Of a stretch of DNA of 64,000 nt, positions 3,670 to 56,690 are shown one piece after another. Position 1 is the first letter of the stretch. Every line of letters starts with the position of its first letter. Position numbers and translations under genes: made by a program. The notes beneath the pieces were generated by a model. It searched no databases. It was given only the letters and a program-made list of their open reading frames with translations, and was not told the origin of the DNA. Origin of the DNA: Diphasiastrum complanatum (taxonomy: Eukaryota > Streptophyta > Lycopodiopsida > Lycopodiales > Lycopodiaceae); the NCBI GenBank assembly GCA_029204225.1, contig CM055092.1, forward strand, positions 24,166,005 through 24,230,004. The letters are read 5' to 3'.

Positions 3670-5067
3670 CTTCGCCCTCGCCTATTCAACTTTCAAAAAG
3701 GATGATCAGGCGGCAAGTATTTGCGATGGTTTTCGTACACCACTTTTTTTAACATATTTGTGCTATGTCGACCCTCTAAAAGTGGTCCACAAATATAACA
3801 TGCCTTGTAACCCGATGTGGTTAAACCTGCATAGTTCATAGACCAAATTAAACATAATGTTAAACCCTAAAACGGATTAGATTCATTATATAGATACCTG
3901 AACATTAGCTTAAACCGAGGTAGTCATGCATCGTCCACATTAGAATTCCACGAACAGCGAAGTTTCGTTGTTGTAAAGGTCTCGAGATGTCGTAAGCGTG
4001 AATACCATTCCAAAGAATGCACAATTCATCGATCAAAGGTGCAAGATACACATCCATGTTTTTGGCCTTGTACTTTTCTGAAATCAATAAAGCCAATAAC
4101 AAGTGTCCCGTTTTAGTGCTCAACCATGGGGGTATGTTGTAATTAACGAGCAGAACTGGCCATGTGGACCAAGTTGATACTTGAACGCTAAAAGGATTTA
4201 CGCCATCCATAGCAAGGCCAAATCTCAAATTATGAGGTTCGTTTTTAAACTTGGTCCATTGGTCTTCAATATGTTTCCATGCAGGTGAATCACTTGGTAC
4301 TCACATCACATCATCCGTAGATCGATTTTTGACATGCCAATCCATTAGTTGTGTGTGCCAAAGATTTACATCGAAATAAACGTTGCAATCATGGGATAAT
4401 TGGAAAATGTCGTAACACTTTTCGTGGCACTTTATCCCCTTGTACGTCATCTCGAAAACGTGAAGCGTTACACATGGGACATTGAAGCTTTTCTGAATGC
4501 TCACCTCTATATAGAACATGGTCTTCTGGACATGCATGTATTGTGTCGTAATCCATTCCAAGCACGGTTACATCTCTCGTGCTTCTTTTCGTGTTTTAGG
4601 TATCACATTTTTTTTCGAAAGTATTCGATGCAACAACCTAAAAAAAGAGCATTGTGAGTTGTTAGAAAAGAAAAAAAATTAACCTAATGTACATATGCTA
4701 TAAAATATAATAGTTATGTTATGCGTTAAGTACCCGAATAAAGATGTCATGCTACGATCACTCCATTTGTATGTTGCTTGAAGGTTTAGAATAAGAATTG
4801 ACGTAGCTAGTCTCAAAATGGATGCTCCAGGATATAGAGGAGTGTCTACCTCCTTGCGCAATAGAATCTCGTCTTCATCCATCTCAAATTGTTCGTGATC
4901 TCCATTTCATTAGAAGATGCATGCATATCATCATTCTCATTTGTTTCAAAGTAAGATTCAAACATGTTGTGCATTGCTTCATCGTGTTGCACCTCATCAT
5001 CATAATCATTAGAATTAAGTTGATTATTCTCTTTTCCAATTGTGTTTGCCTCTTCAATTTGTTTCAT
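3670..5067 (-). pseudogene. TNP2-type CACTA transposase (broken)
   Basis: Reading down the minus strand, the acidic N-terminal region (5067-4846) is followed by TPLYPGASILRLA (near 4840), then a broken stretch to 4301. The core 4228-3905 contains RFGLAMDGVNPF, then YNIPPWLS and the DVYLAPLIDELCILW block, and WTMHDYLGLS. A probable GT-AG intron (about 3893-3832) joins this to GYKACYICGPLL and ENHRKYLPPDHPF near 3690. These blocks match the Transposase_21 (TNP2) family, which cuts CACTA elements at their ends. The frame breaks at about 4300, at a stop after YLGLS, and after HPF. It is not translatable as one protein. Confidence 0.7.
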
Positions 5068-8348: not shown

Positions 8349-8760
8349 TTATGTAGCTGTATTTGCCACTTGATTCGACTGCCCCTTGCTATTCTTCTTT
8401 GCTTGCAGTATCCGGCAGTCTTGAATTTCGTGGTTGTTTCGCTTGCAGTATCTGCAGAACAGCTTCTTCTTTGTTTGCAGATTCGATTGTTCTTTGTGTT
8501 GTGCTGGTTTCTGGTTTGGCTTTGATTGCTTTGGACCTTTCTTCTTCTTCTGCTTAGTCGTGCTCTTGTTCGTGTTCAAAGGGTGAGAATCAGTTGAGGA
8601 ACTTGAGGCTTCATCACCCAACTGTCGTATGAGCTTGGCAAGCTTGTAAGCAGTTGCATCACTGCGTCTTGGTCGTCTATGACAGATCTGACAACAACCA
8701 TTTGCTTCAGCAGGTGATTCTGCAGGGAATCACCATTCACCATCTTACACCATCGATCAT
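8349..8760 (-). pseudogene. copia Gag C-terminus with zinc knuckle
   Basis: A lysine-rich stretch leads to the CCHC knuckle FCRYCKRNNHEIQDC, which binds element RNA in the capsid. Upstream, in a different frame, is the UBN2-type gag block LLTSLPSSYDSW near 8640. A frameshift near 8610 separates the two, so the protein is broken. Confidence 0.6.
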
Positions 8761-9351
8761 CAGATCTTTACAGTCCTAGAATCTCCTTTCCAAAATTACT
8801 AATATCTCATACCATCAGCTTTTCCTTCCAGAAAACCCTTAACCATCTCATCTGATATTCTAGAGATCCACTGACCATCTAGTTGTCCTATAATCCATAT
8901 AGGATATTGTCACTTGTTCCCAAAACCTGGAGAATTCATTTATTTAGATGACTGGCATGCCTATCAGATGGATACCACAAATCCACATCTAATCTAGTGA
9001 TTTAAATAGAAGAATTAATATGGTTCCACATTACATTCTTACCCAAAAATTGATTAATATAGCTTGACCACCGATACAACGATATCAAAGCTCTACAAAA
9101 TATGGGCTTACGTGTAACTGCCGATGTAAGAAAGAAAGGCCATGTAACTACTAAAAGTTACATCATTATAGGGCCTAAAAAATTGACAACTGGGCATCGA
9201 AAATTAAATTTCTATAACCGAGTGCTAGTAGCTTAAATTTATCTGGTTGATTTAAGGAATTAATATATTTCCAATATCAACCATTTCCACATCATGTAGA
9301 GCTTGACTCCATCCTATCCAAAACCACATCCTAGCTGGGGTCTGATACCAA

Positions 9352-9810
9352 TGTAATGACCCTAAGGAATATCCCCTAAGATGAGGATAGGAGAACACAA
9401 TAGGAGAGACTATGGAGCCAAACCACCCAACCAATCCTAGATCAAACCTGGATCTAGCCCCCAAGCCACGCCATGTGAAGCAAGAGGAGAAAAGAGAACC
9501 TAGTAACCTAAACCCAGTATGTCGACGGGAGAATCCCTACCTCATTATATAGAGAGTAGAGTCTTGTACATGAACCCATGCAATCCCCATGCAGGTCAAC
9601 TATAAATAGGCCAACTCTTCATGCAGTCCTCCTGCCTATATCCGTCACATGTACATGCAATACTCCATATGTCTCAATTAGATTGTTTGGGTCCTCTCAA
9701 GGTAATTAGTCACAAACAGGCCTTGACATGGAATTAAATTTCAGTGTGAGCAATAATCTTGAACACTGAAGGGCCAGTCTTTTATATTAGAACTATTCCA
9801 GTTCCTTAAC
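9352..9810 (-). repeat. copia LTR, left-arm copy
   Basis: The minus strand ends in ...GGGTCATTACA, one base before the primer-binding site TGGTATCAGACC (9350-9339). The matching plus-strand copy in the other arm is 23874-24329. The left terminus is judged from where similarity to that copy and a TGTTAAGG-like start fall. No second LTR of the same element is visible nearby. Confidence 0.6.
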
Positions 9811-9889
9811 CGAATATGGCCATAACAAGAGATATGGCATAAGAGGCTTGGACATGTCGATTACAAGTCTTTGAAAACCATGGCAAGGG

Positions 9890-11330
9890 ATGATTCATTG
9901 TGATGTATGTTTTTCTAGCTCAACTATCATAGGTGGAGCTACTCTGTTCTTATCTTTCATTGATGATCAAAGTAGATATGGTTGGGAGAAAGAAAAAGTT
10001 CTTGAATGCTTTGTATCTTTCAAATCATTAGTGGAAGATGTACATGCTTGATAATTATTCAAATGTTCAATCTAATGTGGAAAAATTTGCTGAGATCCAA
10101 GAGGAGTTGAGTATGGATGAGGAGGTGCAATTTTCCCATGCATGTATTCCAAGGAGATCTTCTAGAGCAAGGGCCGAGCATATAAGGATCACTTATGTTG
10201 AGAAAGAAAGAAAAAATCAGATGATATACCTCCTAACAAATCATTTCTTACTTTCTTTATATCTATTGAAGAACCATCTTGCATAGAAGACGTATTAGAC
10301 TCAAAAGAATGGTATGTGGTAGTGTTAAGTGAGTACAATGCTTTAATTGAGAACAAAACTTGGTTGCCTCGTGAGTTACTTTTGGACAAGAAGGCAATAG
10401 GTTATATATGGATTTTCAAGTTAAAATGCAATCAAGATGGCTTGGTTTTGAAGCATAAAGCAAGGTTGGTGGCCAAGGGATATATGCTCAAACCAAATGA
10501 ATGGACTATGATGAGACTTTTTCTCATGTATTTAAGATGGTAACCATTCAAATACTCATTGCTTTAGCATCACATTTTGATTGGTTTCTTTTCCGTAATT
10601 GAGAACAAAACTTGGTTGCTTTGTGAGTTACTTTTGGGCAAGAAGACAACAAGTTATATATGGCAACAAGTTATATATGGATTTTCAATTAAAAATGCAA
10701 TCAAGATGGCTTGGTTTTGAAGCATAAAGCAAGGTTGGTGGCCAAGGGATATATGCTCAAACCAAATGAATGGACTATGATGAGACTTTTGCTCCTGTAT
10801 TCAAGATGGTAACCATTCGAATACTCATTGCTTTAGCATCACATTTTGATTGGTTTCTTTTCCATATGGATGTATCTAATGCCTTCATAAATGGAGTTTT
10901 TGAAGAAGATATCTATATGGACCAACCCAAGGGGTTCATAGTCCAAGGATAATAGCACAAGGTTTGTCATTTGCAAAGAAGCTTGTATGGCCTAAAAGAA
11001 GCTTCAAGAGCTTCGTATGAAAGATTGTATTCTTTTCGTATTTCCATTGAGTTCATAGTAAAGTGAGCATGATCCATTAGTTTATCTAAAGTTTGATGAT
11101 AATGGACATAATTTGTTTTACTTATTTACATTGATGACATAAAATTGAGTAGAACTGGCAACAAACCAAGATTGCTTTATGCAATGAATTTAGGGTGGTT
11201 GATCTTGGTTGTATTGGGGATAGAAGTCACTAGATCCAAATATTATAGCTTCATTTGTCAATCTAAATATGCTCGTCATATTTTCAAAAGATTCAAAATA
11301 AAAATTGTAAAAGTGTAAAAACCTATGGAG
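9890..11330 (+). pseudogene. copia integrase-RT fragment, left-arm copy
   Basis: Plus-strand pieces in order are an integrase fragment with FIDDQSRYGW (near 9955), the acidic linker ending PRRSSRARAE (near 10170), and the reverse transcriptase start (YNALIENKTW, then KHKARLVAKGY). The RT is interrupted by a 252-base tandem duplication and several shifts, then continues as HMDVSNAFINGVFEEDIY (near 10870-10920) to a degenerate YVDD region near 11130. It lies head to head with the LTR and gag relic on the other strand, so two copia fragments are joined here. Confidence 0.65.
10345..10864 (+). repeat. 252-base tandem duplication inside the RT relic
   Basis: The sequence starting aattgagaacaaaacttgg at 10345 begins again at 10597, and the copies are collinear for about 250 bases. 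The second copy has a small internal duplication around tatatatggcaacaagtt. The other inverted-repeat arm has only one copy, so this duplication arose after the arms separated. Confidence 0.8.
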
Positions 11331-11474
11331 CTACTTGTAAATTATTGAAAAGATTAAGAACCATTGGGCCTTGCGTTATGCGAGTAATTATTTTGCGAGT
11401 GTCTTTTGTGCCACCTTTGCACCTTTGGAGGACGCAATTTTTTTTTCTTTTTATTTCACTTAGCACACCAGCGT

Positions 11475-12358
11475 TGAAGGCTACAAATTTTGTTTTCTAG
11501 TTTCTTCGCTTAGCATGTCGGCATGCTATGTTTGGACGCTGCAAAAAGTATTTTGATATAATATTTTATTCAAAATTTGGTTCTCAAATCTGTCAAAATA
11601 CCTTTTCTGTATCATTAAAAATTTCAACCTATAAAACTTATAACATATTCACAAAAAACTAGATTTATCATTTTGTGTTGCATTGCCTAGAAAGCTGAAA
11701 ATTGACTAGCTATTGCAAATCCGAGTCCGATAGGTTCTTGTGTTTATTCATTTACAACATCTGAATTTTTTATTTTCATCACTTTGAATTTCAAGCCCTT
11801 CTTCATCAACCCCTTTTTCCCTTCAAAATCACAAGGATGTGACTATCCCCCACATTTTCTTCTAGTTGAAAATCCATGAGATTCAAATCCCCTCTTCAAG
11901 CTTAATCATGGCCTCCTTACAAGCTATGCTCATCCTTGAAAAATTTTTGAGGGTGGTTTGTAATTGGGTATTTGCTATGACTTTGTCCTAAATATCATCA
12001 ACTTGTTGTACTTTCTTACAAAACATCGGTTATAACCATCATTTTACGTTTGATAAAGATCGATTTGAATTTTTATTTTAGCTGGCAACAAGCAAATTCA
12101 AATTCCGCTTTATTTGTACATTTTATAAGCATCAACGAAGAGTTTTTCTTGAAAAAGGTGGCAAGAAGTAAAATTTGGATTCCACCTCACAACAGGAACT
12201 ATGAACAACCTTGTAGAGTTGTTATTAAAGGTTTGCATAAAATGTGTTACAATGTAATAAGTAATCTTGTTCACTGGGAAACACTAGGGTACATGCATAG
12301 TGGCACTTCGAGCCCAACTTTAGAGTGGGAAAGCTAATTTGTAAACTGTAAGCACATG
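11475..12358. other. Left-arm segment without a partner in the right arm
   Basis: About 880 bases, A+T-rich, with no gene recognised. The right arm lacks this segment: there, a copia element occupies the site and its 3' LTR is missing too. I infer it was deleted from the right arm rather than inserted here. Confidence 0.5.
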
Positions 12359-13025
12359 ACATTTTAGTGCACTTACATTTTGGCCACACAAATTTTATGA
12401 AAATTTTCATTGTTCAATACTCCATTACTTGACTCTCCCCACTTGTGCTATTATTGGGCTATATAAACCAATGTAATTTAACAAAAGGGCTATATTGTCC
12501 TTAGTGCACAATCAATTTATGCGCTCTCAATCGTAAGCTCAAAGTCCAAGTTTTGCATGAGTGGGATGCTTGGAGCCTTACTCTCATTGTCCTTGGCCTT
12601 ACTATGTGGTATAAAGTGCCCATATTGTACATTATCAAGCTAGTTAAGTTGGCTATTAATGTTTACATCTTATAGAGCCACCCCCTTTACCTAATTTCCA
12701 AGCTCCCTCCATGTTCATCATCATCATTGGTCTCAACATTCCTCGCTTAGTTTTTATGGCCCACGTTTTTCAACTTCGTGTTTTTATGGCCCACATTTTT
12801 TATCTTCTGAAAGAATTTAGACTTACTTTGCACCCAAAATTCTAGATTAATACGACCTATAGGCTGCTAACACCACTGAAAAAAATGAATCGCACAACTT
12901 GGAACCAACATTTCTTTGTTGGATTTAAACTTGTACCATGAAGCACAGGTAAATTTTGTTTTTGAAAAGTCAAAATTTGTCATGTGGCTATCACAAATTA
13001 TAATCTAGAGTACATTTTATTTTTG
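12359..13025. repeat. Inverted repeat, left arm, inner part
   Basis: Reverse-complement partner of 17378-18275. The match runs from acattttagtgcacttac at 12359 to aatctagagtacatttta near 13010. The right copy has about 270 extra bases (roughly 17440-17708) relative to this one. No coding region is recognised in it. Confidence 0.8.
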
Positions 13026-13843
13026 GCGTAGAAGTTAAACTTGGAATAGTTATCTACCCCAATGCTCATTTGTAACATTGAATGGTGAGAAGGTACATTC
13101 AAATGATCTTTGAGGCCACCAACATGAGCTAGACATAGAGTGTGGCTGATGTTGGCAAGGGGATAAAATAACTGCTCAAATCCTAAGCTTGTTCAATTGA
13201 GAAACTAAGAATAATTTTCAGGGTTTAAGAAACCGACTAGGATATGGGCAACTAGTGCCAATGGCTCTTAGGCACCATGCTCAAGGAGCCATAATGACCT
13301 AGATTTGAGTTCCAAAGCTAGCTTGATTACGACAACTTAGTGACTACTAGTTCATCCACAAGTAGGAGTCTTAGCCACACCAAACAATTTTGCTAGCTCA
13401 TCCACACATTGAAAGGTCATCCATGTTTGTCTAGACTTGGTATGGGAATATTTTGTTTGGGCCACACCAAGGTCCCACACCAAGGTCCACAGTGAGTCTT
13501 TAGAGAGCACTTTTAGACTCCCGAGTCATCATAAAATGACACAACTCCCAACCATGCTACATTATCTCCACCAACAAGCCATTTTGAAATATTGACAACG
13601 TAAATAACAAATAGACCAAGGTGATAATAAATCAAGAGAAAGTTTGCCTTATGCAAGGCATTCAAGTAGCTGACAAAAAACATGCTCAAAATAAATATCA
13701 CATTTAAAAAAAAAATTAAAAGTAAATAAGAGAAATGCATTTTAATGCTCAAATTTACCTAGGATTGACACCTCAGCTTCAGCTAATCGTCACAATAGCT
13801 TATCTCTACTGCAACAAGGTTGAAAAAGGAATAAAATGTCCAT
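13026..13843. other. Inverted-repeat loop, 5' side: no gene seen
   Basis: A+T-rich DNA between the left arm and the first SINE. I see no gene, tRNA or clear transposon domain here. Confidence 0.4.
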
Positions 13844-13985
13844 CGGAGTGGGGTATATGGGTAGAATTGTTGACTGCCACCAGAAAGGCGCAGGCTTGAA
13901 CCCCGACCACTACGTAGCGACATATGAGAAGCTTAGCTCCGTAAATGGCATTGCCAAGTTTTAGATGTTGTTGTATATAACGACC
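13844..13985 (+). mobile_element. tRNA-derived SINE, copy 1
   Basis: This copy is collinear with 56548-56690. Both share an A-box-like start (tatgggtagaattgttgactg here), a B-box-like ggcttgaacc (13893-13902; consensus GGTTCGANNCC) and a tail with gagaagcttagctccgtaaatgg. A and B boxes are internal RNA polymerase III promoter elements inherited from a tRNA. Two dispersed copies with the same ends support a SINE rather than a tRNA gene. Confidence 0.65.
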
Positions 13986-13999
13986 ACTAGTTGCTTAAC

Positions 14000-15310
14000 A
14001 TGTATGCCAAGAAAAAAAAAAGAATAAAAGTGCGGGCCTTATATATACAAGGTCGGGCGACGCAAAAGCTCAGTGACTAGAAGGGTAACATTATCACGAT
14101 GGTTTCAAATAATTAACCTAGGACGTTAGGAGTAGGTGGGTGCATGTGTGTGTGCGCGCATATGTGTGTGTGAGTGTGAGTGTGAGTGGTTGGATGTGGA
14201 AAGAAGGTTGGGTGGGTGACACATATTTTGTGGCACGAGGAGGCCTTTTAGCCCGTAAAGTGGCATCGCCGCCATTACATCTTTGGAGGTTCTCTATTGA
14301 CGACGATCACACCATACTTTTTATATTATTGCTCCCTCCTCCTCCTCCCTCCTTCCAGCTAGGTTTTTTTCGCTCGATCCATGTTTTTTCGCCTGCCGCG
14401 TACAAACGTGCCTTGCCTGCGCTCTCCTTTGCCCATGTGCCCTGCAACTTTGACTCCTCGAGGTTTCTGTTTCAAGTAAAGGGGTTTTGAATGAATTGGC
14501 AGATGCATCTGCGAAAGTGAATATAATAATAATCTGATCAAGTACTTTGCTGATAAAGTTTTGAAGAGGGTTTAGGATATTGCGGCTGATCGAGTTGGCG
14601 GCTATGGTGTTGTTGCTGCAAACGGTGGGCATGGCTCTGGGATCAGATCTTTGTACGGAAGATTGAAAGCGGTTAGAGTTAGTTTGCCGAGTCTGAGTCT
14701 GTGTCTGTGTTTGCATCTATATGCAAAAGTTGTTCAAAATGGCGGGAGGGTTGGGGTTTGATGAGTTCATGGATTTGATGAGGCTTCTTCGATCTCGCTT
14801 CAGGCCATGTGTTTTAGAAGGCTCTGGTGGTAGAGACATGATACTTGTAAATTAGTCCGACCGGCGTTTTCTTCTGTAGAACGTTTTTTGCTACTTAGTT
14901 GTAGCTATTCTTGTGCATAATCATTCTAGGGTCTCAGGGGGGTATATATTTGAACCTCACACTTGTATAGCCTGGATCTTACATCTTGGATCTAGTTGTC
15001 AGGGAGTTTGTTTGCGTTTTCATAAAACTATTTAGCAGTCTTTGATTCGTTCTTTCTGTTTTTGAAGCACTTGTCTGGAATTTGTTCAAGTGCATCAAGC
15101 TTTGTGCAACTTTCAAGATCAAATTACTTTAGATTATTTAGAAAAGCGGACCGCAGCACCAACAGAGCGAAGTCAGAAAACTATGAGGAAGTAGTTTTAT
15201 TCCGCTTCCAATTTCTGTAAGCCTAGAAGAGTAGAAGTTGGTTGTTATCTGCAATTTGATAGCAAAGCTAGTTTTTTCTAAATCTACTTCTTGAGACGTT
15301 TCAAAAGGAG
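14000..15310 (+). promoter_or_regulatory. Upstream region and probable 5' UTR of the carrier gene
   Basis: Two TATA-like sites are seen, near 14041 (atatataca) and 14320 (tttttatatt). A CT-rich block follows at 14331-14356, typical of plant transcript starts. The long distance to the ATG at 15311 suggests a 5' UTR intron, but no splice pair could be chosen with confidence. A TG-rich run lies at 14143-14190. Confidence 0.35.
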
Positions 15311-16303
15311 ATGAGTCTGAGAGCCGCGTCTCACCATGACGCCGCTGAGATACAGCGGCCTGCAGATGTGGAGTGGCATATGTTGGACAAATCTAAATTT
15401 TTTGTGCTTGGTGCGGCTCTGTTCTCCGGAGTATCAGCAATGCTCTACCCTATTGTTCTTCTTAAGACTCGGCAACAAGTTGCAGCAGTGAAACGCTCTT
15501 CTATGAGCATGGGCGTAGGCATTCTTCAGCATGAAGGTATAGCGGGTTTATACAGAGGATTCACCACCTCTGTGATGGGGACAATCCCTGCGCGTATGCT
15601 ATACATGAGTGCATTAGAGATAACCAAAAGCAATGTTCTTTCCGTTTCTGGGAAGCTCGGATTTTCAGATCCAGCTTCGGCAGCCCTTGCTAATGGAGTT
15701 GCCGGGTTGAGTGCTGCAATAGCAGCGCAGCTTGTGTGGACACCTATTGATGTTGTCAGCCAGAGGCTTATGGTACAGGGCTCCGATGGGTCTGGCAAGC
15801 GCAAATATCATGGTGGCATCAATGCATTAGGGTCTATTTTACGAGCCGATGGTGTGAAAGGCCTTTACCGTGGATTTGGCATGTCTGTTCTCACCTATGC
15901 ACCCTCGAATGCTCTATGGTGGGCTTCCTATTGTGTGGCTCAACGTTCCTTATGGTCTAGCATAAATTACAAGGCTACTGTAGGCAACAATTACGAATGT
16001 GCTTCTCCTAGCTCAGGTCTTGTAGTTGGTGTGCAGGGAATGAGTGCTGCCTTTGCAGGAGGCGTGGCAGCTCTTGTGACAACTCCTTTGGACACAATCA
16101 AGACGCGACTTCAGGTTTTTGAAAGCGAGGTAAACAAGCAGCCCACCATCTCCAGCACTTTGAGGACTCTTTGTAGAGAGGGGGGTTGGAAGGCATGCTA
16201 TAAGGGCCTAGGACCCCGATGGGCCGGAATGTCCATGTCTGCAACGACGATGATCACGACTTATGAGTTTTTGAAAAGGATGTCTGCCAAGTCAAATGAG
16301 TAA
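15311..16303 (+). CDS. Mitochondrial carrier family protein, SLC25A44-like
   Basis: An intact single-exon gene of 330 residues, within the usual size for mitochondrial carriers. The fold is three repeats of two membrane helices, each starting with a P-x-[DE]-x-x-[KR] signature. Here the signatures are YPIVLLKTR (47-54; the acidic residue is replaced by V), TPIDVVSQR (144-152) and TPLDTIKTR (258-266). Each repeat has the following glycine-rich GLYRGF/CYKGL motif (79-84, 184-189, 297-300). The N-terminal LDKSKFFVLGAALFSG resembles plant proteins annotated as SLC25 member 44-like, whose human relative moves branched-chain amino acids; substrate in plants is not settled. It should sit in the inner mitochondrial membrane. 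It lies in the loop of the large inverted repeat and shows no damage. Confidence 0.93.
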   Translation: MSLRAASHHDAAEIQRPADVEWHMLDKSKFFVLGAALFSGVSAMLYPIVLLKTRQQVAAVKRSSMSMGVGILQHEGIAGLYRGFTTSVMGTIPARMLYMSALEITKSNVLSVSGKLGFSDPASAALANGVAGLSAAIAAQLVWTPIDVVSQRLMVQGSDGSGKRKYHGGINALGSILRADGVKGLYRGFGMSVLTYAPSNALWWASYCVAQRSLWSSINYKATVGNNYECASPSSGLVVGVQGMSAAFAGGVAALVTTPLDTIKTRLQVFESEVNKQPTISSTLRTLCREGGWKACYKGLGPRWAGMSMSATTMITTYEFLKRMSAKSNE

Positions 16304-17377
16304 GGGATAAACAGAAGCAAGCAGTTTTGTGATCTTAAATATGAAATAGTCTAAGCATGGTACATCAAGCTTGCCGTTATCTTGAAGTCATGAACCACAG
16401 AGTAGCTTTTTTATACAACAGGAAGGGAAATGTTGCCTTGAAGCAGAGTTTAAGGTTCACAATTTTGTAAATATGGGCACATTTCAGATGTTTGAAGGTT
16501 TAAGGTTTGTGACACCCCTTTAATAGTCTATTGGTTAATAGTCTATTGGGACTGTATAGTAAAAATGCAGAGACAAAGCAATCTGTGGTATGCCCTTTGT
16601 CTCAATAGTTAATATTCAAAGGGCGTTATGCAAAGTACAATTGCTATCTTCGCCTTGTTATGATTTTTTCTGGCTTACATAATTGCAGAAGCAAGACGGG
16701 TGTGGTTGAAGAGGTTCCATGTGCTTCAGCTCTAATATTTTGTATGTGCTGAACTAGATTGCATTTTCTGAAGGCTCCTGATTTCTACACGGCACTAAAC
16801 ACATGATTTTGTATAGTTTGATGGAACCCCGTCGTTCTCGTTCTGTCTCTCTGATTTTTGGGCTGGGCTCTTATGTCTCGTTTGTGTCAACTTCGAGTTT
16901 TCACAGCAGATTCAGTGGTCAATGCTCTAATACGGCTTTTTAAGAAAAGATATGTAATTACAGTCAAGCAGTTTTGTCTATTCAAGAATATAGTTATTTT
17001 TTCAATTTGTCATAATATTTAGGAACCCAATTGTCCTCATTCAAATGGTATACGACCTGGTGTACTTTTAAGTTTTCTCGTCTTGTATTGGAGCTAGGTC
17101 GGCAGAAAATAGCTATGCTCCTGTAGGCTGTAGACTTCGTTCCACTCAGGGGACACACAGAAAATTCATTTATAATGTTACTTCGCACGAGATATTTTCT
17201 TTAGAAACAATGTTGTACACTCTTGATTTCAAGAGGTGTGTTACAACATTACAATGAACGATTGTGTTGGCATTTTAATTCATATGTTTTAAGTGCATTA
17301 AATCATGCAAAGAACTTCATTCATTCAAAATTATGCTTTGAGCCTTGTGCATGACTTGTTTTATGAAAAAGGACCTT
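16304..17377 (+). other. 3' region of the carrier gene, no further gene
   Basis: A+T-rich sequence probably including the 3' UTR. A short repeat of tagtctattggttaatagtctattgg lies near 16525-16550. No other gene is recognised before the right arm starts at 17378. Confidence 0.4.
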
Positions 17378-18275
17378 AAAATAAAATGTACTCTAGATTA
17401 TCATTTGTGATAGCCACATGACACATTTTGACTTTTCAAAAAGCATTTTACAATGCTTAAATTGTTCATAAAGAATTTGGGGTAGCACATTACACATAAA
17501 AAGCCAAAATCATCTTTGGGCCGTGAAAATGTTATCAACCTTAGCTAAGACAATTCCTTAGGCTTGGAAAAAGTCTTTTTAGTGACCATTCAATGGTTGT
17601 TTGCTTATGATTTGGCATAATGGCCTTGCCATAAATTTATGGTTGCTTTATTAGGTGCATAGATCACTTAAAAGACAATTTTCCAATACAAAATACAAAA
17701 ATTACCAGTGCTTCATGGTACAAGTTTAAATCCAACAAAAAAATGTTGGTTCCTAAGTTGTGTGATTCATTTTTCAGTGGTGTTAGTAGCCTATAGGTCG
17801 TATTAATCTAGAATTTTCGGTGCAAATTAAGTCTAAATTCTTTGAGAAGATAAAAAATGTGGGCCATAAAAACACGAAGTTAAAAAATGTGGCCATAAAA
17901 ATTAAGCGAGGAATGTTGAGACCAATGATGATGATGAACATGGAGGGAGCTTGGAAATTAGGTAAAGGGGGTGGCTCTATAAGATGTGAACATTAATAGC
18001 CAACTTACCTAGCTTGATAATGTACAATATGTGTACTTTATACCACATAGTAAGGCCAAGGACAATGAGAGTAAGGCTCCAAGCATCCCAACTCATGCAA
18101 AACTTGGACTTTGAGCTTACGATTGAGTGCGCCAAATCATAAATTGATTGTGCACTAATACATTGGTTTATATAGCCCAATAATAGCACAAGTGGGGAGA
18201 GTCAAGTATTGGAGTATTGAACAATGAAAATTTTCATAAAATTTGTGTGGCCAAAATGTAAGTGCATTAAAATGT
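17378..18275. repeat. Inverted repeat, right arm, inner part
   Basis: Reverse complement of 12359-13025, with an extra segment of about 270 bases (17440-17708). That extra part resembles 56365-56540: both have aatttggggtagcaca-like and aaccttgccataa-like stretches. It is probably a small dispersed element inserted in this arm. The arm stops at 18275, where the copia LTR begins. Confidence 0.75.
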
Positions 18276-18957
18276 TGTTAAAAATTCACAATTCTTGCTT
18301 GACTAGTTTTGGTCATATGACTTGTAAATGGTAAGATGGTTATGATGTGGCTTGTCACACGTGCCAAATAGCATAGGATTCCATTCATAAGGATGTTCTC
18401 AAGTTGACCTAAGTGATAGAACCTTTGGAATGAGTCCAAATCACGCTTAGATACAAGAGAGAAAAAGTAGGAGCTATTTTTGGTAATTTTTACATTGTTG
18501 AAGGATCTCCAAGATTCCAATCCTAACTTGGTAGGGATGAAAGATCCACCAGAATTAGCATTAGGGATAGGTTTAGGGCTACTCATACCTGCCCAAAACC
18601 GTGATGGATCATGTATATATATGTGATGATCTCTGACCAAAATCAATCAAGCAATTCCATGATTTTTTTCTCATATTGGTGTAATTGCTCTCTATGTTTA
18701 TAATTCTTTGAGTTCTTGTGATTCCTAATGATTATAGGATTGAATGTAAGTCTGGTGTACAGTACTCAGACTGTGGGAGGCCGTACTTTCACACATGTGA
18801 AGGCTTCTTCAAGTATTTGGGCCATTTAGTGAGGTTCAAGCATAGATTCTTGATGGATTTTGATGGTTCAACTTGTGCTAACCTTATGAGATCATAATCT
18901 ATTGTTTCCCTCATCATTTCAAGTGTTTTAGGATTCTTATTTGTTGTAATTTTTACA
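18276..18957 (+). repeat. copia 5' LTR
   Basis: Begins TGTTAAAAATTCAC and ends GTAATTTTTACA, the imperfect inverted TG...CA ends expected of an LTR. The primer-binding site follows directly. The first 14 bases are repeated exactly at 22467-22480, marking where the 3' LTR began. Confidence 0.8.
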
Positions 18958-18970
18958 TGGTATCAGAGCC
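18958..18970 (+). other. Primer-binding site, initiator Met-tRNA
   Basis: TGGTATCAGAGCC matches the complement of the initiator methionine tRNA 3' end and sits immediately after the LTR, as in most plant copia elements. Confidence 0.85.
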
Positions 18971-19743
18971 TAAAGGTTGAAATGAGCTAAATTCTTGGTT
19001 TTCATTCAATTTGATCACAATTTTTTATCTAAATCTTGTGTAGATTGGATCTTAGCATCTAGCATTGATTCTGGAACTCAAAGTGAGTCAAATCCATTGG
19101 AGATTGGTGTTATGTGACTTCATTTGCAAGTGTTTAGGTGTCTAAAACCAGAGGCAAAGTTGAATTCAATTCACATTACCAATATAGCAAGTTTTGCATT
19201 TCTAAGCGAGTTTTGGAGGTGATTTCATAGAGGAGGCTTTCTAGCATTCAAGGAGAGGGAAGATTAGAGATTTGGAGACTCTTCAAGGCTGTTCTTAGAT
19301 GTAGAGGACACCTCCTAAAGTGATTTAGGTTCAGTCCAACCATTGCTTGACTTATGCATCAAATTAGATCAATTTTTCATTAATTTTGATCGATTTTTGC
19401 TTGTGATCGGATAGTAGATTGTGTTGCATCCTCATTAAGTTCCATTTAGATCTTTTGCAAGTGATTTTGGAAGGATATTAGGTTGTTGAAATTCACTCTT
19501 GATCAGAGCTTTTATGTTCTTTATAGAAAGAGAGACAATTCTACTAGTATTATCTACTTCAATCAAGCAAGTGCATTGTTTCTAGTATTCTATGATTTGA
19601 TTTTGTTAAAGATCATTCTTAGATCTTTATAGGAAGTCTATTACTGATCTTTTCAGGTCCCTAAGAAGTGGGATAAGGTATATCTTCAATCAAATCAATA
19701 GAAGTAACCTTCATTTGTGTCAAGTCCTTGATTAGGAGAATAG

Positions 19744-20485
19744 ATGGCATCTTTAAATGCATATCTTTTGGATACTAATGAGAGGCTTAACAAAATTAAC
19801 TATTCTATATGGAAAGTTAGAATGGAATCCATCATGATCATGCAAGATCTAATGGAGATTGTAAATGGTAAGGAGGGTGAACCTATTCATCTACAAGAAA
19901 AAGCCAAATACATCAAGAGGTGCAATATTGCACTACATTGTATAAAAATGAATGCTGCAAGTGAACTCTTAAGAGAGGTAGGAGATTGCACTTCAGCTCA
20001 AGATGCTTGGGAGACTTTGCAAAAGGTCTATGAATCCAAGAACCAAACTAGGATGTTAGCTTTGAAGAATCAAATATATAGAAGCTATCAAAAGAAAGGA
20101 GAGAGTGCACATACTTTTGTCTTAAGAGTGAAGGAATTGAACAAAGAGCTAGCCTTCATAGGTGACTATCAAGGATGAAGAGCTTGTTCAACTCATATTG
20201 AATGGACTAAGCTTTGAATTTGACAATTTGGTTCAGGGATATGCAATTATGGGTAAGCTACCCATACTTGAAGAGCAAGGCACACTCATGGTTGAGGAGT
20301 CAAGAAGGAGCCAAACACAAGAGAGGATGGATAGACTTTCCATCCAAGGTGGAGATGACCAAGCTCTCTTCAACCAAGGCAAAGGGAAGCCCAAAGGCAA
20401 AGGATCAAAATTCAAGAAGTCTTCAAAGCTTGAGAATCAAGTGTTAGATTTCTTATGCTCAGCCTTAAACAAATCGTTCAAGTAA
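19744..20485 (+). pseudogene. copia Gag (UBN2 type), frameshifted
   Basis: The first frame (19744-20178) starts MASLNAYLLDTNERLNKINY and holds NYSIWKVRMES, then TSAQDAWETLQKVYES and MLALKNQIYRS, the standard UBN2 gag blocks. A frameshift near 20165 moves reading to 20162-20485, with ELVQLILNGLSFEFDNLV and a basic tail. The zinc knuckle that should follow is missing because the element is deleted from about 20486. Gag would form the particle that packages element RNA. Confidence 0.75.
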
Positions 20486-20880
20486 TGAGCATCCTGAAAA
20501 ACTCGAAGGCCAACAACATATTTTTTGGCCTTCACATTTTTTCCCCTTTTGAGATTTCTTATGCCTTAGAAATCATTTTAAAGGCACCTTTGTCTTTTTT
20601 TCCTTTTTCACTCCTTAGCAAAAAATGCGACACACTGGCCAAGTGGCCAGAATACCTTGGAAATCATTTTAAAGGCATCTTCGCCTTTTTCGCGTTTTTG
20701 CTTTTTCGCTTTTTCTACATTGGCTGACCGACATTGCCAACTTATGAGTAACACTAAAAAGAGCTGGACAAACAAGTATCCCAAAGGCGGTTGGCGGTTA
20801 CCAACTTTGTACATATGGAAAGACTGGTGTAAATAGCATTAAAAGCTGGAAGATATTTTTTGACACTTGTAAATCTATAT
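20486..20880 (+). other. Scrambled segment replacing protease and integrase
   Basis: No protease or integrase motif is found. A block beginning cctt(a/g)gaaatcattttaaa occurs twice, at 20564 and 20655. T-rich runs dominate. The segment probably derives from a deletion filled with unrelated DNA. Confidence 0.45.
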
Positions 20881-20903
20881 ATTAGCTGATTCGAGCTATG
20901 TAA

Positions 20904-22452
20904 GTGTTAGTTTTTGTTGAAGAAGCATTGAACTCCAAAGAATGGTATAAAGCTATGTTGGATGAGTATAATGCCTTGATTGAGAATGAAACTTGGTTGC
21001 TTGTTGATAGACCTCAAAGGAATGTAATAGAATGCAAGTGGGTCTTCAAGCTTAAGTTGAATGCAAATGGGAGTGTTAACAAACATAAAGCAAGATTAGT
21101 TGCAAAAGGTTATGCTCAAGAGAGAGGGATAGACTATGAGGAAAATTTTGCACCCGTGGCCAAGATGGTCATAATAAGGCTAATCATTGCACTTGCATCA
21201 CATTTTGGATGGATCCTATATCAAATGGATGTCTCTAATGCCTTCTTGAATGGTTTTTTGGAAGATGATATCTATATGGAGCAGCCACAAGGGTTCATCA
21301 AGCATGGAATAGAGAACAAAGTATGTCATCTCCAAAGAAGCATCTATGGCTTGAAGCAAGCCTCGAGATCTTGGAATTCAAGATTACATTGCTATCTTAT
21401 ATCACTTTTTTTTTGGTTCAAAGTGAATATGATCCCATTCTTTACATTAAGTTTGATGATGGTGGTATTGTACTTTTACTCATTTATGTAGATGACATCA
21501 TCATTAGTGAAAATAGTGTTGATGATGGTATTGAAAAATCAAGATAGATCTATCCTTAGAGTTCAAGATGGTAGATCTAGGGTGTCTTCACTTCATCTTA
21601 GGCACAGAGGTACTTAGAGGATCTGATTTTATCTTTATAAGTCAAGTAAACTATGCTCAAAGTCTTTTGAAGAAGTTTAAGATGGAAGAGTGCAAAAGTG
21701 TTGACACACCAATGGAGCAAGATGTAAAAGTGCCAAATGATGATGATGAAAGATCCTTCATGGACATCACTTTGTTTAGGCAACTTATAGGCTCCTTAAT
21801 GTGGATCACTATAAATAGACCATATATGAGCTTTAGTATATGTAGGTTGAGCCAATCCATGCAAAAACCATTGAATATCCATTGGAAAAAGGCTAAGAGG
21901 ATTCTAAGATACATCTCGGGTACATTGGATTTTGGGATTCTATATAGAGGAGATGTGATTAACCTTCAGGCATTTAGTGATTTAGATTTTGCAGGGGACA
22001 AGAGGGATATGAAATCAACAAGTGCCTGTTCAACTTTCATAGGAGAAGGTGTGGTTTCATGGCTTTCCAAAAAGCAAGAAACTATATCTCTATCTTCAAC
22101 CGAGGCCGAGTACAAAGCTTTGACAACCACTACAAAGGAGGTACTTTGGATCAAGAGATTATTGGTGGAGCTAAAGATCATGGATTCAGAGGAGGCACCA
22201 ATCATCTACAATGACAATATATTAGCCCAACACCTTGCATCTAACCCAATCTTCCATTCAAGATCTAAGTACATTGAGATATGCCATCACTTTGTGAGAG
22301 AAATGGTGCAAGCCAAGGAGATTGCTTTGGAGCATGTTCCAAGCAATGAATGTGTAGCTGATCTACTTACTAAACAACTTCAAAAGACACCTTTTATGAA
22401 GTCCAAATCATCACTTGGAGTGATTAGTAAAGCAGTGATTGAACCAAGCTAG
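20904..22452 (+). pseudogene. copia reverse transcriptase and RNase H, frameshifted
   Basis: The RVT_2 start is clear: YNALIENETW, then KHKARLVAKGYAQERG, ENFAPVAKM, then QMDVSNAFLNGFLEDDIYM. Frameshifts occur near 21390 and 21545. The catalytic YVDD lies at about 21486 (LLLIYVDDIII). The frame 21568-22452 carries LGCLHFILGTEV and the RNase H domain with its acidic residues in FSDLDFAGDK, then SSTEAEYKA and NDNILA, and ends HVPSNECVADLLTK. Fewer breaks than in the surrounding relics suggest a younger insertion. Confidence 0.8.
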
Positions 22453-22629
22453 ATAGTGAGGAGGAGTGTTAAAAATTCACACGCTGGTGTCCTAAGTGAA
22501 ATAGAAAGAAAAAAAAATTGCATCCTCCAAAGGTGCAAAGGTGGCACGAAAGACACTCGCAAAAAAATTACTCGCATGACGCAAGGCCCAATGGTTCTTA
22601 ATCTTTTCAAGAATTTACAAGTAGCTCCA

Positions 22630-23870
22630 TAGGTTTTTACACTTTTACAATTTTTATTTTGAATCTTTTGAAAACATGATGAACATATTTAGATTGACAA
22701 ATGAAGCTATAATATTTGGATCTAGTGACTTCTATCCCCAATACAACCAAGATCAACCACCCTAAATTCATTGCATAAAGCAATCTTGGTTTGTTGCCAG
22801 TTCTACTCAATTTTATGTCATCGATGTAAATAAGTAAAACAAATTATTTCCATTATCATCAAACTTTAGATAAACTGATGGATCATGCTCACTTTACTAT
22901 GAACTCAATGGAAATACGAAAAGAATACAATCTTTCATACGAAGCTCTTGAAGCTTCTTTTAGGCCATACAAGCTTCTTTGCAAATGACAAACCTTGTGC
23001 TATTATCCTTGGACTATGAACCCCTTGGGTTGGTCCATATAGATATCTTCTTCAAAAACTCCATTTATGAAGGCATTAGATACATCCATATGGAAAAGAA
23101 ACCAATCAAAATGTGATGCTAAAGCAATGAGTATTTGAATGGTTACCATCTTGAATACATGAGCAAAAGTCTCATCATAGTCCATTCATTTGGTTTGAGC
23201 ATATATCCCTTGGCCACCAACCTTGCTTTATGCTTCAAAACCAAGCCATCTTGATTGCATATTAACTTGAAAATCCATATATAACATGTGCCTTCTTGTC
23301 CAAAAGCAACTCACGAAGCAACCAAGTTTTGTTCTCAATTAAAGCATTGTACTCACTTAACACTCCCACATACCATTCTTTTGAGTCTAATACGTCTTCT
23401 ATGCAAGATGGTTCTTCAATAGATATAAAGAAAGTAAGAAATGATGTGTTAGGAGGTATATCATCTGATTTTTTCTTTCTTTCTCAACACAAGTGATCCT
23501 TATATGCTCGGCCCTTGCTCTAGAAGATCTCCTTGGAATACATGCATGGGAAAATTGCTCCTCCTCATCCATACCCAACTCCTCTTGGATCTCAGCAACT
23601 TTTTTCACATTAGATTGAACATTTGAATTATTATCAGGCATGTACATCTTCCACTAATGATTTGAAAGATGCAAAGCATTCAAGAACTTTTGCTTTCTCC
23701 CAACCATATCTACTTTGATCATCAATGAAAGATAAGAACATAGTAGGTCCACCTATGATAGTTGTGCTAGAAAAACATACATCACAATGAATCATCCCTT
23801 GCCATGGTTTTCAAAGACTTGTAATTGACATGTCCAGGCTTCTTATGCCATATCTCTAGTTATGGCCATA
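22630..23870 (-). pseudogene. copia integrase-RT fragment, right-arm copy
   Basis: Minus-strand copy of the fragment at 9890-11330, with the linker PRRSSRARAE (near 23510) and the RT block HMDVSNAFINGVFEEDIY (near 23040-23090). It has a single copy of the unit that is duplicated in the other arm. It is broken and ends at the LTR that begins at 23874. Confidence 0.65.
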
Positions 23871-23873
23871 TTC

Positions 23874-24329
23874 TGTTAAGGACCTGGAATAGTTCTAATA
23901 TGGTAGGCCGGCCCTCCAGTGTTCGAGATTATTGGTCACACTGAGATTTGATTCCATGTCGAGGCCTGTTTGTGACTAATTACCTTGAGAGGACCCATAC
24001 ACTCTAATTGAGACATATGGAGTATTGCATGTACGTGGATATAGGCAAGAGGACTGCATGAGAGTTGACCTATTTATAGTTGACCTACATGGGGATTACT
24101 TGGGTTCATGTACAAGCCTCTACTCTCTATATAATGAGGTAGGGATTCTCCCGTTGACATATTGGGTTTAGGTTACTAGGTTCTCTTTTCTCCTTTTGCT
24201 TCACATGGCATGGCTTGGGGGCTAGATCCAGGTTTGATCTATAGGATTGGTTGGGCTGTTTGGCTCCGTAGTCTCTCCTACTGTGTTCGCCTATCCTCAT
24301 CTTAGGGGTTATCCCTTAGGGTCATTACA
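23874..24329 (+). repeat. copia LTR, right-arm copy
   Basis: A 456-base segment starting TGTTAAGGACC and ending GGTCATTACA. It is followed one base later by the primer-binding site TGGTATCAGAGC (24331-24342). A TATA-like ctctatataatg lies near 24125-24136, the expected place for an LTR promoter. No gag is confidently read downstream in this copy. Confidence 0.65.
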
Positions 24330-24395
24330 TTGGTATCAGAGCCCACCGGCTAAGATGCGGTTTTGGATAGGATGGAGTCAAGCTCTACATCGGTT

Positions 24396-26207: not shown

Positions 26208-29200
26208 ATGGACACAACTGCAGCAGCCGAGCTTGGAATGGGAGGGATAGATGATGTGGGAAACTGGAATGGTGAGGGATGGCAAGAGCAAGAGTATGAA
26301 TCTTTTCCCACTGGTAAGGCGGCTAAATTTTCAAGAGGTACAAGGACTGGGGAAGGGAATGAACCAGGCCTGTCAGCGAGCCGCGGACGCACAGGATCAG
26401 AACAAGACAGGCCCCCTCCATCAGGTCCAGAGCCTCCACAAAAGCGGATACGGACCACCCATGGACGACAAGGTACAGGATATGGGAATTTTCAGGAAAA
26501 TGGGGACTACAATGAAGAAGTAGACGATGGTGATGGACAGGGGCTAGATTACAATGCTGGCCAGAATTTTGATTCTGATGATTGGTATGGGGCTGAATCT
26601 GGTCCTGAATTGGGGTATCCTGGAGGTGCAGATGGAGGTTGGTACCCCAGCTATGGTCCGGGAGTTGGTCCTCAACATCAAATGGCTGATCCTTGTATGA
26701 TGCCTAACTTTTATCATGATGGCATGAACTATGGATCAGCAGGCCCAATGAACTTTTTTGGAGTGTCTGCACCACCATCAGGTGCAGGATTGGGGAATGG
26801 CAGAGGAAACACATCGCGAATATTCTATAAAACAAAGCTATGCAGCAAGTTCAGGGCTGGAACTTGTACTTTTGATGGCAATTGCAACTTTGCCCATGGA
26901 GCAGCAGAACTCAGAAAGCCACCACCAGGTTGGGATAGCATCCCGGTTGCACAGAATCAGAATGGCTGGGGTCGAGGTCAGCGCACATCTTCGGCTCCAA
27001 ATCAGTCTCATAGTCGAAGCCAGAGGGGGTCCTCAGATTTCCAGAAACTTCACAAGACCCGTCCTTGCAAGAATTATTTCACTGATGGGGTCTGTCCATA
27101 TGGTGACAAATGCAGTTTCTTACATGATGTTGACGGAATGCAGCCAAGATCAAACAGAGACAGCACCACTTGGTCGGGAAGAGTTCCAGGAGGTGGCAGA
27201 CGAGGAGGAAGAGGGGGCAGTGGATCATCGAGGCCTTTCAGCTGGAAGACAAAGATGTGCAGAAGATGGGAGACCACAGGAGAGTGCCATTTTGGAGATA
27301 ATTGTCACTTTGCTCATGGAGCAGCAGGTATGGCACTACTATGACCATCTGAATTTAACTGCATTGAACATTTCCTATCGTGTGGTTGAAATTTTCAATT
27401 TGGGCAGCCATGATGAGATGTTTTTTTTGGGGAAATCTTAAGATTTGTGGTTAAAATTTTCAATTTGGGCAGCCATGAGAGGCTCTAAGATTCAACTGTA
27501 AGATCCCTCTGGTCCCATAGATTAGAAAATATCTAAAGTCAAATGCTCCTTCCTCTTGACCTTGCCCAAAGTACACAAATAACAAATTTCATCTCTCGGG
27601 GGAATACCTTAGAAATAGCATCTCCACATGTAGCTGCTGTGAGGAAACCTGAAGCTATCCCAAAGTGAACCTGAAGCTATGTTACAGTCCTGAGCCTGAA
27701 TAATGAGACACAGATAGAGAGAGTGAGTTAGTCAAGTCGGACAATCTAGAAAGCTACTAATAACTATAAATAATGGAGCAATTATGAACATGAACAGTAA
27801 TGTGAGCATTAGAACAGGAGGAAAGGAAGAAATAGCAAACATGAGTTAGTGACAGGATCTAGGGCTAATGTGGGACACTGCAAAAAAAATATTTCTTTTA
27901 ACATAGAAGAGCAATATGTGTGTTTACACACACAGGGTCGTAGTTCTAGAAACAGTAAACTCTGGTAAATTTATCCCAGTTATAGGACCTTAGTATGATA
28001 GTATTTTTCAAAACCCAGATAGCAACTTATGTTGGGTATTGATGAGACATAAGCAATGCTGGCTAAATTTTTTGTTTGTTGAATTCTATACTATTGGTTT
28101 GATAAGATCCTTTGACTTTTTTGTTGCATATACATTTTGTCGATGCTTTACCTTATGATATCACTGACTGCTCAAATTAAATATGTGAAATTGGATATAT
28201 TACAATTTCACAAATAGTATCATCATAGGAGAATATGTGGACGTTTTTTTCTAAGATCTTTTCTTCAACCCAAATGACCCAAACAAAAGCAGAAGTACCA
28301 AAATAACTAAGCACTCCGTACCTTTCAGAATATGGAAACTTCAATTGAAGAGTTTGTAGTACATAATTCAATTCTACCAACTGTATGAAGGCAATAGTAC
28401 TTGACCTCTTTCCTTTTTATACAGCGCTTAGCAATGTGCCCTGGTTTTGGACTTTGGTATTGTAGATTATCTTTTCGAGCATTCAAATGAGACTCTTTTT
28501 TGGGCTTTTTATTGACATTGATCAATATGTGCTTGAAAGTGCCAAGAGTGGAGTTGAGTCTAACTTTCCCATTTTTCTTTCGGTATTATTGTGTTTGTGC
28601 ACTTTTTGGAAACAACTATGCTGGACTCAGAGTTTTGCAACACGAACCCTATCTCTCTATGCACACCAGAGTAGCCTAACTGGTTGGGTTCAGTAGGCTT
28701 CAGGATGAGTAGCTTAATCGGGTTTAGCCTGATCAAGGCTCTCCACCCCCTTCTTGACCCGAGTGGAAGGATTGTTTCTTCTAATATTGGTAGGAAGCTT
28801 GCTACCTGATTACCTGTCCATAGATTCACAACTGTGTTCTATAAATTCCATCGTTGTTCTTATGACATAGTTGTTGATATCTTGATTTCTTTATGCTTTT
28901 CAACTAGACACTGGCTGATGCTTGCTAGTTTGTATCCAATTCAATTACTAGCTTTTGCAGGCAACAAATCAACATATCCTCAAGAGAATCAAGACACCTT
29001 TGAGATCCCACCACGTTAGTTGACCCAATTGAAAGAGAAACACCCTGCAAGGATAATGCTTAGGAAGGAGAAAGTCGCTTGGCATTCTAGCAATGAAATA
29101 AGTTCTTTGTCATGAAATACTTATGCAACACCTAGGTCGTATTAGGTTCAATTAAAAATTTCAAAGAATTGGACGTGGGACTCACCCCCCAACCTAGAAT

Positions 29201-48540: not shown

Positions 48541-55650
<7,110 letters not shown>

Positions 55651-56547
55651 GGGTCCAAGGTTGAGGACATGTAAAATTGGAATGAATACATCTGTAAAGG
55701 AGGGAAAGGGAGAATCTAAAATTTTGCTTATAGTTAGAGATTGATTTAGTAACTTTATATTGTTAAGAAGGGCAAAAATTCTTATAATGTCTGGACTGTT
55801 GAACATATTTTGGACAAGCAATGATGTCAGTGTAGATTCTCAACAAGGTTATTATTAGTGTTTGGGTTATTGTTTTATAACACCCACCAGGTCTAGTGAA
55901 TAAAAATCTTTAAGCTAAACATAACCGTCAATTTCTAGTATATGAAACATCTTATGATGATTTACCCGTAGTTTAGGAATATTAAATACATTCTTATTAC
56001 TCTATGGTTATCTATTGATGATAAGGCACAGAGCATCGACACAGATGATAGCCAATCCTATATATATGATTCTCAATTATAATCGGTTGTTTAGGAAAAG
56101 TATACCCGTTGGATCCGGGTTGTGATACTGGCCAACAATAATCGAACTTGTCTTGTAGCCACCCAATACTCAATGCTCAAAACCAACACCCAACACCTAA
56201 AACATGTGAGTATTAGAATAAGGCCCCACCTTATATCAAGAACAAGTGAGTATGAGTGAATAAGATCCCACTTGATATATGGAAATTGAGAGTATGGGAT
56301 TCAATATATCTTATTTTATGATCTCTAATTACTAGTTTATCGTCATAAAATGTTTATGCAGAATTTGGGGAGCACACTACAAATAAAAAGTTAGAACCTA
56401 TTTGCCATAACAACTATTTTTAAATGCCATGTAAAATGCCAAAACAATCCTAAGAATGGTCGTTTTAGTGACTTACGTACTATTTAAACAATAACCTTGC
56501 CATAATGAGAGGGCAAAGGTCATCATTAAGAACATTTCCCAATACAT
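55651..56547. other. Unassigned DNA with a dispersed repeat
   Basis: The part 56365-56540 resembles the extra segment 17470-17700 of the inverted-repeat right arm, sharing aatttgggg-agcaca, then cttttagtgac and aaccttgccataa. It is likely a second copy of a small element. Nothing else is recognised. Confidence 0.4.
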
Positions 56548-56690
56548 CCCCGTGAGGTGTATGGTTAGAGCTGTTGACTGCCACTCGAAAGGTGCAGGCT
56601 CGAACCTCGACCAGTGTGTAGTGACATCTAAGGAGCTTAGCTTCGTAAATGGCGTTGCCAGGTTGTATATGTGTTATACATAACAAAAAA
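56548..56690 (+). mobile_element. tRNA-derived SINE, copy 2
   Basis: Collinear with copy 1 at 13844-13985. It has an A-box-like atggttagagctgttgactg and the B-box-like ggctcgaacc (56597-56606), closer to the RNA polymerase III consensus than copy 1. The shared tail continues through gagcttagcttcgtaaatgg. It does not fold to a full tRNA and has no anticodon arm in the right place. Confidence 0.65.

Follow-up and report, generated by a model that had tools for sequence, protein, structure and literature searches.

What places an intact plant gene between two mirror-image tracts of transposon debris, and do those tracts act on it? The question is raised by a 64,000-nucleotide (nt) stretch of the Diphasiastrum complanatum genome (contig CM055092.1; C1:24166005–24230004 in the genome searches), hereafter the window, in which a gene for a mitochondrial carrier of the SLC25 type lies in the loop of a large interrupted inverted repeat. 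Here we argue that the two arms of this repeat most probably arose when a mosaic that was already dead was duplicated once, locally and in inverted orientation, and that the pair is neutral debris rather than a functional hairpin locus. A mirror pair of plant transposon debris would then have come to surround a gene without two transpositions, and the order of events can still be read at the locus.

Layout of the inverted repeat

The preliminary description of this DNA, made from its letters, had claimed a large interrupted inverted repeat, and comparison of the window with itself recovers both inverted pairs at coordinates within about 5 nt of those reported. We call the arms A (left) and B (right), each with an outer segment, X, and an inner segment, Y. 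In the cleaned alignment the X pair (A 9294–11474, B 22481–24390) differs at 72 of 1,904 aligned columns (96.2% identity; Kimura two-parameter distance, K2P, 0.039), and the main piece of the Y pair (A 12359–12968, B 17684–18275) at 21 of 582 (96.4%; K2P 0.037), so that overall divergence is alike in the two. The inner end of Y, which overlaps the main piece by 3 nt of A, adds two differences in 57 columns, and the inner ends of the arms are flush. E-values of 0 for the X pieces in self-BLAST exclude a chance match. The interruptions of the arms are unlike, with 884 nt (Z) in A versus a 4.2-kb Copia piece in B. Besides the arms and a tandem duplication within X of A, self-BLAST (E up to 1e-10) found no pair in the window of at least 100 nt at 90% identity or more. 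The features, with long terminal repeat abbreviated LTR and open reading frame ORF, are as follows.

9294–9828, minus strand: outer X of arm A; from a Copia family of very high copy number, the LTR and primer-binding site plus about 40 nt of leader (genome matches, primer-binding-site motif)
9829–11474, plus strand: inner X of arm A; decayed Copia pol with stops common to B, internal deletions and a tandem duplication, followed by the first part of a short repeat (RVT_2, protein match, arm alignment, genome search)
11475–12358, no strand assigned: Z, 884 nt between X and Y, retained in A alone; starts inside the short high-copy repeat that spans the X/Z border (genome search, fetched repeat copies)
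12359–13023, plus strand: Y of arm A, without about 245 nt of B (self-comparison, alignment)
13024–17377, no strand assigned: loop between the Y arms, 4,354 nt (self-comparison)
15311–16303, plus strand: mitochondrial carrier (SLC25-type) gene, an intact single ORF of 330 amino acids (ORF, Mito_carr profile, match to 6gci)
17378–18275, minus strand: Y of arm B, with a B-only part at about 17443–17690 (self-comparison, alignment)
18276–22481, plus strand: Copia piece inserted in B exactly where Y would meet Z; 5' LTR beginning at 18276, primer-binding site at 18958, gag, reverse transcriptase and RNase H region, and of the 3' LTR only the initial 15 nt, at 22467–22481 (Pfam matches, primer-binding-site motif, junction contexts)
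22481–23856, minus strand: inner X of arm B; Copia pol fragment whose first base is the last base of the nested 3' LTR remnant (self-comparison, arm alignment, genome search)
23857–24390, plus strand: outer X of arm B; LTR and primer-binding site (arm alignment, primer-binding-site motif, family copies)

Common descent of the arms

The case for a single duplication is carried by the inner part of X and by Y. The pol fragment in X runs opposite to the LTR and is recognizable by an RVT_2 piece in A (E 3.8e-07; at 30.4 bits slightly below the curated cut-off of 31.6 bits) and by a protein-level match of 104 amino acids, at 62.5%, to the reverse transcriptase of the Copia element nested in B, in frames that are interrupted by stops. 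These stops and frame breaks are common to A and B, and the LTR/pol junction lies at an identical position in both. In addition, both pol fragments are without two stretches, of 126–127 nt and about 476–503 nt, that are present between the matched pieces in three copies elsewhere (C7, C12 and C2); since these deletions are common to both arms, pol was already dead before the duplication.

Genome searches were made against the plant's own 1.745-Gb genome (5,176 contigs), and in each the best 40 candidates were scored. For pol (3,728 candidates), the three best of 77 matched stretches belong to A and B, at 95–100%, the arms being 95–97% identical to each other, and the scored matches included no other above 85% over more than 100 nt; a few of 42–65 nt reach 88–90%. 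When Z and Y were searched together (727 candidates), 39 of the 42 matches fell within the first 200 nt of Z and the other three were A and B themselves; A's version of Y, the B-only part not being included in the search, had no further match among those scored. The pol part and Y of the two arms are thus each other's closest relatives among scored matches, while the LTR part is just marginally closer, and it is because of this relationship of pol and Y that the arms most likely come from a single duplication. The shared junction, the shared lesions and the closest-relative status together indicate that the composite was dead and assembled before it was copied. As a separate observation, a 61-bp stretch of the B-only part of Y (17458–17518) recurs at 56346–56404 with 79% identity.

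Proposed order of events

We propose that a dead mosaic of 3.7 kb, made up of a Copia LTR with leader, a decayed Copia pol fragment, Z and Y, would have been copied once, in inverted orientation and about 4.35 kb from itself, flanking the carrier gene. The copying may have occurred during DNA repair, either as break repair with an ectopic template or as replication template switching. Later, a Copia element would have inserted into B at the Y/Z border, after which B would have lost Z and the greater part of that element's 3' LTR, and A would have lost about 245 nt of Y.

The nested piece in B (18276–22481) has an LTR, primer-binding site, gag and reverse transcriptase in Copia order, with profile matches to Retrotran_gag_2 (E 3e-15) and RVT_2 (E 2.2e-47 and 1.2e-08); the three nested pieces scanned gave no match to integrase. 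Its LTR is oriented into X of B. Homology to A stops in B at 18275, immediately before the first LTR base at 18276, and restarts at 22481, the last base of the 15-nt 3' LTR remnant; the remainder of that LTR was not found anywhere else in the window. A seems to keep the older order, because the short repeat at its X/Z border crosses that border by 26–52 nt in four of six copies fetched from the 39 matches (the other two start at 11474), and we infer that B gained the Copia element and then lost most of the 3' LTR and Z. The 245 nt of Y without a counterpart in A have TTTTTG at their flanks in B. Such a pattern is what a small deletion during repair would give, and A would have lost the 245 nt in this way.

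Arm A also carries a 269-nt tandem duplication (10344–10866) that is not present in B, seen in the self-comparison as 205 nt at 96%. Its two copies differ at 13 of 254 positions from each other and at 8 and 10 of 253 from B, counts that place it at about the same age as the arms.

The preliminary description was right about the interrupted inverted repeat and about the carrier gene in its loop, and its suggestion that the structure could give long hairpin RNA and small RNAs and let the loop invert is plausible, though not the reading we favour. What it overlooked is that most of each arm consists of transposon debris, duplicated as one block, with interruptions that come from later insertion and deletion.

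Other origins considered

Inverted neighbours of high-copy LTR families are common in plants, and two independent insertions of one transposon family, in opposite orientations, could happen to flank a gene. The outer 535 nt of X do belong to a very high-copy LTR family, and the two arm LTRs are no closer to each other than are some unrelated copies of it. However, a common LTR/pol junction, the same dead pol with the same deletions, and a Y matched here alone among the candidates scored are not expected of independent insertions; the homology of A and B extends past the LTR element into dead pol and Y, so that the arms are related outside the element as well. On the genome searches, the shared junction and the shared lesions we rejected this origin, which we regard as very unlikely. 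That a haplotype pair or a chimeric join in the assembly produced the mirror copy appears extremely unlikely, given four separate breakpoints, differing flanks on every side and a 4.35-kb loop that occurs once in the window, and given that a join error would hardly yield copies that are 96% identical, differ by many indels and show events specific to one arm.

Transposition of the whole block on a carrying element, Helitron-like or with terminal inverted repeats, was also tried as a candidate and set aside, as no common terminus was apparent by eye at the four ends, no dedicated search being run; inspection by eye likewise revealed no transposon terminus or target duplication bounding the block. 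A single local inverted duplication fits what is generally known of inverted segmental duplications, in which a block of unrelated pieces is copied once, junction and lesions are shared, and neighbours are nearest relatives. Nothing essential is different here, and the present locus would be one such case, altered with age as further sequence was inserted and deleted.

Points that weigh against a single duplication

Several observations weigh against this reading of the arms or limit how far it can be taken. The search with X (9,041 candidates, best 40 scored) gave 41 matches, three from A and B and 38 others, and all 38 others are restricted to query positions 1–546 (window 9285–9830) at 89–90%, that is, to the LTR part. 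In favour of common descent, the LTRs of A and B have 10 states in common that set them apart from all five family copies compared; they have 14 and 11 private states, respectively. The distance between them, 7.2% (38 of 527), lies inside the 5.6–8.0% range found among those five other LTR copies, and each arm LTR is 8.3–10.2% from the five, which were picked as best matches to A. As the distance between the arms falls within the range of other copies, the LTR part is by itself no proof of common descent; taken alone it would be weak evidence, and it is the shared junction and pol that appear to carry the argument.

Divergence is also uneven along X, with 40 differences in 560 columns to the left of 9859 versus 32 in 1,344 to the right (scan p 0.0015). 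The LTR part is 7.2% divergent between the arms compared with about 2.4% to its right, such that the arm as a whole cannot be given a single age, except where mutation is faster in the LTR or conversion has been at work. CpG transitions (nine left and five right of 9859) do not explain the step, which persists when they are excluded (31 of 560 versus 27 of 1,344). The step lies near the LTR border at 9828, and it may reflect either a faster-changing LTR or arm-to-arm conversion. With a substitution rate of 1.3e-8 per site and year, a grass value that is uncalibrated here, the K2P distances of 0.037–0.039 would put the duplication at about 1.5 million years ago; conversion would make it look younger.

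At the outer ends, B continues in the family leader to about 24569 in all five compared copies (62–70%), and the five copies are mutually alike over about 160–470 nt of leader beyond B's outer end, which means that B's end is not necessarily a breakpoint. A does not continue into the leader; beyond its outer end, 9043–9255 resembles two of the five copies at positions 800–1,225 nt further inside the element (66–73%), and A probably lost the stretch between this homology and the leader. Direct search between the outer flanks beyond 9294 and 24391 found nothing, and at the protein level the flanks match significantly in the first 20–30 codons alone, which is shared leader. Hence the outer end is no clean breakpoint, and the original duplication may have been longer.

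B's run into the family leader had suggested B as parent and A as daughter, an idea that we dropped when a control revealed family similarity in the outer flank of A as well, further inside the element. We make no claim as to which arm is the parent. Of three short-repeat copies set against B, one (L020) extends its match 9 nt beyond B's X border, probably by chance. Next to the outer flank of A, at 8747–9039, there is a very high-copy stretch of about 293 nt, with 88–90% identity in all 39 other matches among the best 40 scored of 6,401 candidates.

The carrier gene and activity of the arms

That the loop contains an intact carrier gene, as claimed, is confirmed by the uninterrupted ORF at 15311–16303, which holds three Mito_carr stretches (Pfam E 1.2e-53, scanned without the first methionine) and matches the ADP/ATP carrier 6gci (E 1.4e-17). 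A repeat resembling a short interspersed element (SINE) occurs in two copies in the window, 13841–13981 and 56545–56684 (80%), one of them in the loop upstream of this gene; a stretch like the B box of a tRNA was judged by eye to be present in the pair. We infer that the gene is a bystander of neutral debris. Were the loop to flip, or the arms to give rise to small RNAs, the debris would be tied to the control of a mitochondrial transporter.

Recombining arms would undergo conversion between them, and the carrier loop would flip between two orientations in the population. The drop in X divergence to the right of about 9859, for which CpG transitions are not the cause, and a longest mismatch-free run of 258 aligned columns (shuffle p 0.0014) speak for this reading, which we still consider unlikely. 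The step adjoins the LTR border, where a faster-changing LTR is possible, there is no such pattern in Y, and conversion is not the same as flipping. A wider proposal, in which the arms still interact by conversion and loop flips, the orientation of the carrier gene and its nearness to outward-facing LTR promoters vary among individuals, and arm-derived small RNAs silence the locality, seems to us distinctly improbable.

Nor do we favour a functional foldback locus, in which read-through across the loop would yield a long hairpin that is diced, the small RNAs maintaining methylation of the arms and perhaps of the carrier gene. Foldback RNA is possible from the sequence: the arms pair well, with the 258-column run in X and perfect pairing of 884 of 2,158 24-mers (41%) in the X arm and 201 of 642 (31%) in the Y arm, and long, near-perfect complementary arms are as in endogenous inverted-repeat loci that make small RNAs. 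TATA-like 7-mers in both Y arms, at 12460 on the plus and 18174 on the minus strand, aim into the loop and, as motif matches alone, weakly support inward transcription. However, the LTR remnants in X are directed outward on both sides, as their primer-binding sites indicate (9350 on the minus strand in A, 24331 on the plus strand in B), and one transcript could include both arms only by running through the carrier gene, over a length of 5.9 kb for the whole of Y or 15.1 kb for X. Loop and arms have no 16-mer in common; arm-derived small RNAs would thus not recognize the carrier by its sequence, and an effect on the gene could arise by spreading in cis alone. Overall, a functional foldback locus is in our judgement quite improbable.

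Long endogenous inverted repeats yield hairpin-derived small RNAs in Arabidopsis, and IR71 and IR2039 have documented precursor RNA and small RNAs (PMC4687873), which counts in favour of a foldback. What they share with the present locus is a pair of long inverted arms, nearly perfect in their match, within the nuclear genome of a plant; unlike them, the present locus is known from sequence, has a gene in its spacer and carries X LTR remnants that face outward. In accessions of Arabidopsis, the inverted gene duplications VIM4–VIM2 and PAI resemble it as intrachromosomal inverted duplications with structural variation between copies, although there genes form the arms, and at VIM4–VIM2 it was a deletion shortening the spacer that enabled read-through (PMC13213937). 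This counts against a foldback here, where transposon debris makes up most of the arms and the gene sits between them.

Other features in the window

Gene content and the Copia and Gypsy elements of the window are consistent with a plant. Scans of the window for tRNAs (ARAGORN with the bacterial code) and Rfam families (at the gathering score) gave no matches. A further Copia element with long open gag and pol frames lies on the minus strand at 30511–33964, with a primer-binding site at 34532, and the minus strand also holds a Transposase_21 piece at 3905–4300 and an RVT_1 piece, read as Gypsy-type, at 1255–2103. Genes for CCCH zinc-finger proteins are found at 26208–27341 and 59182–61152, the latter AtC3H23-like, and long perfect dinucleotide arrays (TC/CA and AG) occur at 50311–50443 and 54755–54881.

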